From NCBI GenBank assembly GCA_958510825.1, contig OY294049.1, positions 29,912,774 through 29,976,773 on the forward strand: 64,000 bases of DNA. Direction: 5' to 3'. The translations under genes were made by a program, and so were the position numbers. Shown piece by piece: positions 19,472 through 20,617 of the stretch. This DNA comes from Brachypterus glaber (taxonomy: Eukaryota > Arthropoda > Insecta > Coleoptera > Kateretidae). The notes below the pieces were generated by a model. That model was not told where the DNA came from. It ran no database searches and saw only the letters and a program-made list of their open reading frames with translations. Numbering within the stretch: the stretch's first letter is position 1; the number at the start of each line of letters is the position of its first letter.

Positions 19472-20617
19472 TCAAAAATAATATTGTTTAATTTTTTCAT
19501 AGGTTCGTTCAAAACCTTGATGACCTGCAGATGGCAAATCATGATTTTCTTGTAAAATAGTTTTAATTAGATCTGGGTCTGTTAAAGTAATACGTCCATC
19601 GGAAAGTATTTCATACTTAAAGTCCCTAAATAGAAAATATAATAAAGTATAAAATGTATCTTGTTTAATAATATCATTATTTTCTGAAATATCTGGTATA
19701 GTAAAATATTTAGTTTCATTATGTTGCAATAAAAGTATAAGATTATAAAGTGTGTCAAATAGAATTTCATAAAGTCCAAACCAAAGAGATTGTTGAGGTA
19801 ACCGTTTTAAATTTATTTCTTTTATTTTCGCATTAGGAATAGTTAAATTGTGTTTGTTAATATAATCAATGTATTTATTATTGTTTGATAAATCACAGGA
19901 TAAAGGAATTACAAAAAATTTTATCCTGTTTAAGGGAGTATTTACTATAGTTGGTTTAGGAATTCTAATTTCTCTTTGATGAAATTTTTTTAAGTTATCA
20001 AATGTTAAATCTTCTTCTGGTTGAATATAGTTAATATTATGTTGTTCTTTTATAAAAATATATACTTTTATTTTCGAATCTTTAAAAATAAATTTAATTA
20101 AATTGAAAATAATATTCCATTCGAGTTTATCTAATCCACAAGCAATTTGTGGCATAGAAACTTCAGTTTCTTTGAATTTTATTAATAACGATTTTAAATA
20201 TTCTAAAGACTGAGAAACAGTTTTATAAGTAGGTTTATCAAAATAATTTTCTTTTGTAATTAAGTAATATATTTTTCTACCATGTTCATTTATAAAAGCT
20301 ACTTCACCTACTTTTTTATTTTGATTTTTGAGTATATCGACAGACTTAAATTTGTTTTTAAAATCCAGTACGATACCACTATTCATATAAAAATCTTTTG
20401 ATACACAGTGAACTAATGATCTTGTATTTAAGGGGTTAAAAATGTTATCGTGAATTATTATGACATTGTCATTTTTAACATTTAAGTTATTATTTATGAT
20501 TTTATCAATAGAAACTTGATTATTTGAATCAGTTTTTTCTAATTTTAAACGACTAAGCGCATCAGAATTAATATTGTCTTTTCCCGCTTTATATTTTATC
20601 TCATATTCGTGATCCAT
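19472..20617 (-). CDS. pol: Gypsy element 2 pol: RNase H end, macrodomain, integrase N-terminus
   Basis: This 381-codon frame begins with the end of RNase H (KYKAGKDNINSDALSR), so the true frame continues upstream past a TGA at 20630-20632. Residues about 52-190 form a macrodomain of the OARD1/TARG1 type: a beta strand and loop around HDNIF, LVHCVSKDF, the MNSGI loop, VGEVAF, IYYLITK, FDKPTY and MPQIACGLDKL. Lys122 (in LITK) and Asp163 (in CGLD) match the two catalytic residues reported for human TARG1. The family removes ADP-ribose from proteins. Residues 190-345 are unrecognised. The end (HDLPSAGHQGFERTYEKI) is the integrase zinc-binding start. The stop at 19472 is internal to pol. Confidence 0.85.
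   Translation of the reverse strand: MDHEYEIKYKAGKDNINSDALSRLKLEKTDSNNQVSIDKIINNNLNVKNDNVIIIHDNIFNPLNTRSLVHCVSKDFYMNSGIVLDFKNKFKSVDILKNQNKKVGEVAFINEHGRKIYYLITKENYFDKPTYKTVSQSLEYLKSLLIKFKETEVSMPQIACGLDKLEWNIIFNLIKFIFKDSKIKVYIFIKEQHNINYIQPEEDLTFDNLKKFHQREIRIPKPTIVNTPLNRIKFFVIPLSCDLSNNNKYIDYINKHNLTIPNAKIKEINLKRLPQQSLWFGLYEILFDTLYNLILLLQHNETKYFTIPDISENNDIIKQDTFYTLLYFLFRDFKYEILSDGRITLTDPDLIKTILQENHDLPSAGHQGFERTYEKIKQYYF

Follow-up and report, generated by a model that had tools for sequence, protein, structure and literature searches.

A TARG1/OARD1-type macrodomain in the Pol polyprotein of errantivirus-like Ty3/Gypsy elements of the beetle Brachypterus glaber

What is a macrodomain of the kind that removes ADP-ribose doing inside the Pol polyprotein of a retrotransposon? 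The question is raised by a stretch of 64,000 nucleotides from the genome of the beetle Brachypterus glaber (contig OY294049.1, positions 29,912,774 to 29,976,773; the whole of it is hereafter the window), in which a preliminary description, made from the letters alone, had placed such a domain between the RNase H and integrase regions of an envelope-bearing Gypsy element. The animal counterpart that it named, TARG1 (also OARD1 or C6orf130), is described in sections of two papers as removing ADP-ribose from acidic residues and from the phosphate ends of nucleic acids (PMC7050489, PMC8053099). Sequence comparison confirms the assignment of the beetle domain to the TARG1/OARD1 type of macrodomain.

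All five blocks quoted in that description (LVHCVSKDF, VGEVAF, IYYLITK, KPTY and MPQIACGLDKL) are present at 20464..20048, though on the minus strand. The domain (macro1) comprises 139 stop-free residues inside a 385-codon open frame (20629..19472, minus strand), which starts in the tail of the RNase H (DALSR) and ends in the zinc-binding region of the integrase (Integrase_H2C2, E 2e-8), and the proposed position between these two in a single open frame is thereby borne out. A phmmer search against the sequences of the PDB led to five distinct chain sequences of human OARD1/TARG1, 4j5r among them, with E values from 4.7e-33 to 6.4e-33, the match spanning residues 6-137 (132 residues) and the next PDB match at E 0.047. 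A 17-sequence profile recovered the same structures at E 3.2e-60, followed by 5m31 (7e-10) and 5m3i (4.8e-9), the names given being Appr-1-p processing domain protein and RNase III inhibitor. A MacroD-type class for the window's domain is not borne out, its best solved matches being TARG1.

The catalytic dyad of TARG1 consists of Lys84 and residue 125, according to part of PMC7050489, where the text prints 'Glu125'; the aligned human chain has Asp at this place. The preliminary description was right that the catalytic Lys and Asp are kept, and wrong in giving Lys122 and Asp163 as human numbers: these are positions in the element's own frame, which in the alignment to the TARG1 structure sequence pair with human Lys84 and residue 125. 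Binding of ADP-ribose is lost in TARG1 mutants, G123E and I44E among them (PMC5928194, in part). Of 58 loci examined, 56 have the match, and all of these (54 distinct, two being one place fetched twice) retain the residues that correspond to Lys84, Gly123 and residue 125. The window copy itself deviates at two otherwise conserved places, with GIA changed to GIV and NKG to NSG.

A genome-wide search with the window's macrodomain (648 Mb assembly; 590 candidates, 150 of them scored) revealed many further copies. Every one of the 150 scored matches encodes the domain (E < 1e-39), and in 53 of them the frame runs for at least 1,300 aa without a stop. Forty-four of the matches are 82-100% identical to the window's domain and constitute its subfamily, the window copy included, and the other 106 are 49-61% identical. 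Thirty loci of the window's subfamily, drawn from the best-scoring matches in a manner that favours well-kept copies, have a median pairwise identity of 0.986 over the 1.6 kb around the macrodomain; since 32 of the 435 pairs reach at least 0.995, some copies appear to be young. The window copy is an outlier in this subfamily, with an identity of at most 0.953.

The domain order recurs in these copies. In the mid-type loci L039, L041, L048, L049 and L051 the macrodomain is preceded by reverse transcriptase (RT) and RNase H and followed by the H2C2 and rve modules of the integrase; L043 and L050 were scanned on one side of the macrodomain. A Baculo_F envelope follows pol in five of the six subfamilies examined, with none found in L151. 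Beyond the beetle, a 439-aa protein of the ladybird Coccinella septempunctata shows the same order of domains and shares 50% identity with the window's 385-aa frame across 99% of that frame. Three further proteins (P0025, P0026 and P0031) carry the macrodomain between RNase H and integrase, the match in P0031 being short (82 residues); in P0027 it stands before the integrase, but what lies upstream is another reverse transcriptase-like stretch, and the protein has no RNase H match; in P0003 it lies behind the C-terminal domain of the integrase; and P0009 is a fragment in which phmmer finds the macrodomain and Pfam has no match. The preliminary description had looked to frames with the order RNase H, macrodomain, integrase as a check on its proposal, and open-frame copies of this kind were indeed recovered in the same genome and in Coccinella. 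In substance, neither of the outcomes that it took to speak against the proposal was seen: the TARG1 match is strong, and the domain stands in open frames of homologous elements.

The module is found in other places as well. In L053 and L054 the macrodomain lies C-terminal to the integrase. Trees of RNase H plus integrase make L054 a sister of the mid-type L050/L051 (100/98; 100/99) and not of L053, and in the macrodomain trees the L053 and L054 domains are mutual sisters (100/98; 100/99). For macro-free relatives, ten loci were picked from an RNase H search (2413 candidates, 150 scored) for having no listed macrodomain nearby, and none was found in any of the ten within the 2.8 kb fetched, a sample that says nothing on how frequent macro-free relatives are. 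Eight of the ten resemble other Gypsy clades; five of these were placed on the tree, from which the other three, the near-identical rows L060, L066 and L068, were left out. The remaining two are L061 and L063; the frame length of the latter, 1286 aa, recurs at three other places among the scored RNase H matches. L061 groups as sister with L041, which bears the macrodomain (100/97), and the two are 77% identical across 304 columns. Between DALSRIKI and NALENASIINNPGD, L041 has a leader of 27 residues, the macrodomain and a tail of 8, and L061 has 8 residues between the same two sides, that is, an empty site relative to L041. The module thus comes or goes cleanly, and the existence of the macro-free relatives L061 and L063 shows gain or loss within the group. 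The three states of the module need at least five changes on the RNase H plus integrase tree, on which gain and loss are not told apart.

A third context, a separate multi-copy family, came to light when OARD1-like proteins were compared with the genome. For one of these, P0011, 150 matches were scored, of which the top 65 are 52-58% identical to it; 47 of them have frames of 478-517 aa free of stops. Of the five loci read from this family (L153-L157), L153 (C16:22138500-22143500) and L154, taken at 5 kb each, have a single 516-aa frame with a TARG1-type macrodomain at its C-terminus; no pol-like frame occurs within the 5 kb fetched of either, and the long terminal repeat (LTR) check of the fetched stretch gave a short tandem repeat only. 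The N-terminal part of the frame is probably Gag-like, judging from a PNMA match (E 0.004, below the Pfam cut-off) and from a local match to the window's gag at a score reached by 1 of 300 shuffles (16 for an RNase H control and 10 for a second gag); it had no relevant match in the PDB. The two frames are 96.8% identical and the stretches preceding them 89.7%, and for this one pair the ratio of nonsynonymous to synonymous substitution rates (dN/dS) is 0.17 in the macrodomain and 0.37 in the rest of the frame.

The lineage of the window shows a further elaboration. After macro1 stands what is, on profile evidence, a degenerate second macrodomain (macro2; 19616..19921, minus strand, borders approximate), recognised in the linker that leads on to the integrase. 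In hhalign comparisons, 24 linker sequences of this lineage match the macrodomains of the elements in register across 84 columns, with a probability of 94.2 and a score of 49.9, where 60 column shuffles gave no more than 19.8; against cellular OARD1-like rows the probability is 72.2 and the score 35.7, where 60 shuffles gave no more than 21.1. Single linker sequences of L039, L043 and P0002 score above all 300 shuffles, and the Coccinella linker is picked up by a cellular macrodomain profile when 59 sequences are searched (E 1.4e-7). The likeness surfaced with profiles only; the counterpart of the CGLD loop has lost its glycine, and the window's macro2 is about ten codons shorter than that of the sister L039. 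The stretch was seen in the window, at L039:1700-2200:- and in P0002. A second intact macrodomain in the same element was not found by tblastn with the window's domain in 50 loci (best second hit E 0.29). The corresponding bridge between RNase H and integrase in the other subfamilies is another matter: hhalign gives it probabilities of 0.4 and 0.3 against the macrodomains and 4.1 against the linker of the window's lineage, and derivation from a macrodomain is not supported there. In comparisons of single bridges with the linker, the score of L061 is reached by none of 200 shuffles and those of five others by 5 to 43 of 200; that the bridge is a worn macrodomain throughout the group is a conjecture.

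The macrodomain is maintained under purifying selection. Among the macrodomains of 20 loci, NG86 estimates give a median dN/dS of 0.19 and a maximum of 0.37 in the 109 of 190 pairs with 0.3<dS<3; a further 43 pairs were saturated or failed, and the pairs are not independent of one another. For the pair L045-L047 (macrodomain dS 0.57) the ratios are 0.17 in the macrodomain, 0.07 in the RT-RNase H piece and 0.15 in the downstream piece.

From where, and how often, the domain was acquired is a question on which the trees are compatible with one capture or with several. With a 35-row macrodomain tree, the approximately unbiased (AU) test did not reject the grouping of all 18 element domains (p 0.45), of the 12 rows from the beetle's own genome (p 0.38) or of own genome plus Coccinella (p 0.064), on an alignment of 139 columns that resolves little and from which P0030, P0024, P0027 and P0017 were left out. 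The domain of the fusion family is nearest to P0011 (56%), and this family may represent a separate capture; a single origin with the Pol-borne domains is likewise not rejected (p 0.27). Three genome searches, taken over their best 38, 150 and 150 matches, did not single out an OARD1 gene of the host itself. Two loci, L001 (C17:29125868) and L002 (C16:10383197), with PF01661 scores of 152 and 94 bits and no tblastn match to the window's domain, probably represent ordinary macrodomain genes of the host. Viral contigs scanned with the window's domain (P0001) and with P0008 yielded no confirmed relative; a scan with an alignment confirmed 97, of which 80 were kept (L069-L148), TARG1-like at 24-41% identity, below the values for the ladybird and the nearest animal proteins. 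Other TARG1-type macrodomains were noted as stand-alone or unplaced sequences in P0008 (141 aa, on a contig of 159 kb), which has Gly at the expected position of the catalytic Asp, and in P0030 (610 aa). P0028 and P0029 join a TARG1-type macrodomain to DNA ligase Pfam domains, one of them also with a PARP-type zinc finger, and thus offer a further link between this type of domain and DNA ends.

As to function, the reading that we favour over all its rivals, and hold with somewhat better than even confidence, is that the domain would serve as a particle-borne ADP-ribosyl-hydrolase acting on nucleic-acid ends or proteins of the element. An errantivirus-like group would have taken a TARG1-type domain into Pol and kept it as a movable module. 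Its fusion to Pol, or in the other family to a probably Gag-like protein, leads one to expect packaging, and the domain would lie inside the particle beside the DNA being copied. There it would most likely strip mono-ADP-ribose from the ends of element cDNA or RNA, or from Gag, Pol and nearby host proteins, at a time around reverse transcription and integration, and so undo ADP-ribosylation by the host. What we infer in this picture is that the domain is enzymatically active, is packaged, acts on such substrates and brings a benefit against the ADP-ribosyl-transferases of the host, and the same holds for the link to PARP-based defence that the preliminary description suggested. Weak similarity to DarG, a DNA ADP-ribosyl glycohydrolase antitoxin that part of PMC7050489 places in the same macrodomain class as TARG1, lends support to an eraser: the NCBIfam DarG model matches the window copy (E 4.9e-8, 32.6 bits), L053 (6.1e-17, 61.9 bits) and L153 of the fusion family (6.4e-14, 52 bits), all far below its cut-off of 250, and membership of the antitoxin family itself is not supported.

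Several observations weigh against this picture. The Pfam Macro model (PF01661) matches neither the window copy (up to E 1) nor the whole 385-aa frame, so that the profile search envisaged in the preliminary description succeeded with TARG1 and failed with this model; it does match the sister elements L053 (3.6e-8) and L054 (2.9e-7). The loci used for the residue check came from the best-scoring matches, which biases them towards well-kept residues. L061 and L063 fall within the macro-bearing clade yet lack the domain, which is not essential to the backbone, and in the cleanest pair the macrodomain is under weaker constraint than RT-RNase H (0.17 vs 0.07). The presence and absence of the domain among such close relatives, and the degeneration of the adjoining macro2, would also suit a captured passenger or structural spacer, a folded but non-enzymatic filler between RNase H and integrase; we think this improbable in view of the low dN/dS, the kept active-site residues and the multi-copy spread in three contexts. 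The simplest objection, that an assembly join or the insertion of a host gene affected the window copy alone, could appeal to the fact that this copy is broken and carries another insertion. It is refuted, to practical certainty, by copies on many contigs, in stop-free frames, in several subfamilies and from independent sources.

More of a competitor, though still an unlikely one, is a domain that reads rather than erases, binding ADP-ribosylated chromatin or PARP1 and steering integration. The chromodomain at the end of some Gypsy integrases steers integration, and the macrodomain lies right behind the integrase in the two subfamilies of L053 and L054 and in P0003; an interaction of TARG1 with PARP1 is also reported in a section of PMC7050489. 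Against this stand the catalytic Lys and Asp, retained throughout the matching loci beyond what mere binding would seem to need, and the probably Gag-like fusion and the place ahead of the integrase, neither of which calls for tethering. Finally, it might be the host that benefits from the domain, say in defence against other viruses or in repair, with the element as its carrier. An analogous proposal exists for helicases borne by retrotransposons (part of PMC6338049), and it fits that no host OARD1 gene was singled out among the best matches; nevertheless, the many copies in ordinary element frames with RT, integrase and envelope make it very improbable, and no fixed single-copy domesticated locus turned up, none having been specifically sought. 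The hydrolase thus remains our preferred reading.

The window provides one copy of such an element, and its parts support, by their likeness to known domains, its interpretation as a decayed, env-bearing, errantivirus-like Ty3/Gypsy element. All of them lie on the minus strand: a gag piece at 23824..24294 (Retrotrans_gag, E 1.1e-7), a gag zinc-knuckle piece at 23559..23909 (zf-CCHC_2, E 3.9e-4, and zf-CCHC, E 0.0031, both below cut-off), a protease piece at 23248..23661 (motif LIDTGS only), an RT piece at 22416..22892 (motif VIDYRKLN only, without a Pfam RT match) and an RNase H piece at 20630..20971 (RT_RNaseH, E 1.1e-27), followed by the RNase H tail and the leader to the macrodomain in the same frame as the latter (20465..20629, recognised from the sequence, without a Pfam match of its own). 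Downstream of macro1 (20048..20464) and macro2 come the first part of the integrase zinc-binding region (19475..19579), the integrase core (18650..19471; rve, E 5.9e-12) and an envelope piece of Baculovirus F type (18030..18596; Baculo_F, E 1.9e-9, above cut-off), on which the Gypsy env model gives E 0.0056, below cut-off. The errantivirus-like context first proposed thus finds support in the Baculo_F envelope after pol, here and in the subfamilies. The Ty3/Gypsy order of RT, RNase H, then H2C2 and rve is present in the sister frames and lies in pieces in the window; the protease is weak in the sisters too (RVP, 1.4e-4, in L039; RVP_2, 6.8e-6, in L051). On Pol trees, in which no named errantivirus was included, these elements separate from the genome's other Gypsy clades. 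The window copy is broken, its pol frames stopping at about 20630 and 19471, and its RT and RNase H pieces are separated by an insertion on the plus strand with a long frame of its own (21177..22193), which resembles a non-LTR reverse transcriptase by its motif YADDTN. Searches of 16000-26500, and of 24300-28500 against 14500-17700, found no LTR pair in the window.

Three other LTR retrotransposons lie in the window, at 4427-9245 (minus), 50040-53024 (minus) and 55161-59210 (plus); two are Gypsy-type and one Copia-type, the last with a 1349-aa open frame, and the one at 4427-9245 resembles the macro-free L065, L066 and L068. Repetitive frames at 60603-62392 (...YSYVLLNTFAHKYVPP...) suggest a tandem repeat.

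Some RNA viruses use macrodomains in counter-defence and replication. A wider proposition, which we advance tentatively and rate somewhat below even odds, is that erasure of ADP-ribose recurs among Ty3/Gypsy elements as a selected trait: a TARG1 module would counter a host ADP-ribosylation defence from three contexts of one genome, namely between RNase H and integrase, behind the integrase, and behind a probably Gag-like protein with no pol nearby, one lineage having duplicated the domain and let the second copy degenerate, with the group-wide bridge perhaps a worn macrodomain. Elements may, in other words, erase a host mark during their life cycle. Near relatives with, without or with a displaced domain form a natural comparison, through which restraint of invertebrate retroelements by ADP-ribosylation becomes testable.

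How does this arrangement compare with known systems? The closest likeness is to TARG1 itself (E 4.7e-33; 40-50% identity to animal OARD1-like rows; key residues kept), from which the beetle domain differs in being part of a retroelement polyprotein. In non-primate lentiviruses a dUTPase lies between RNase H and integrase; this extra enzyme occupies the same slot of Pol and differs in fold and reaction. The macrodomain extends the list of enzymes that retroelements have acquired in the RNase H-integrase slot. According to a passage of PMC4977317, which cites Basta et al. 2009, open reading frames that encode macro domain proteins occur in some fish epsilon-like sequences. As far as that passage goes, these endogenous retroviruses resemble our case as retroviral elements with a captured macrodomain, and differ in that theirs is an additional open reading frame in a vertebrate, Retroviridae-like element and ours lies inside Pol of a Ty3/Gypsy element. 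Macrodomains inside polyproteins are likewise found in coronaviruses, alphaviruses and hepeviruses, where removal of mono-ADP-ribose is reported (sections of PMC7050489 and PMC8053099); these belong to RNA viruses and to the MacroD class, unlike the TARG1/ALC1-like class seen here. Part of PMC6338049 discusses accessory domains in retrotransposon polyproteins, without mention of macrodomains. By title and the start of the abstract, the open-access matches listed held no description of a macrodomain in a Ty3/Gypsy element, which is weak evidence of novelty, as most journals behind subscription and all of bioRxiv lay outside them. The beetle elements hence belong to a known kind, the macrodomains of viruses and retroviruses, within which they are unusual for the class of the domain, its place and its mobility.
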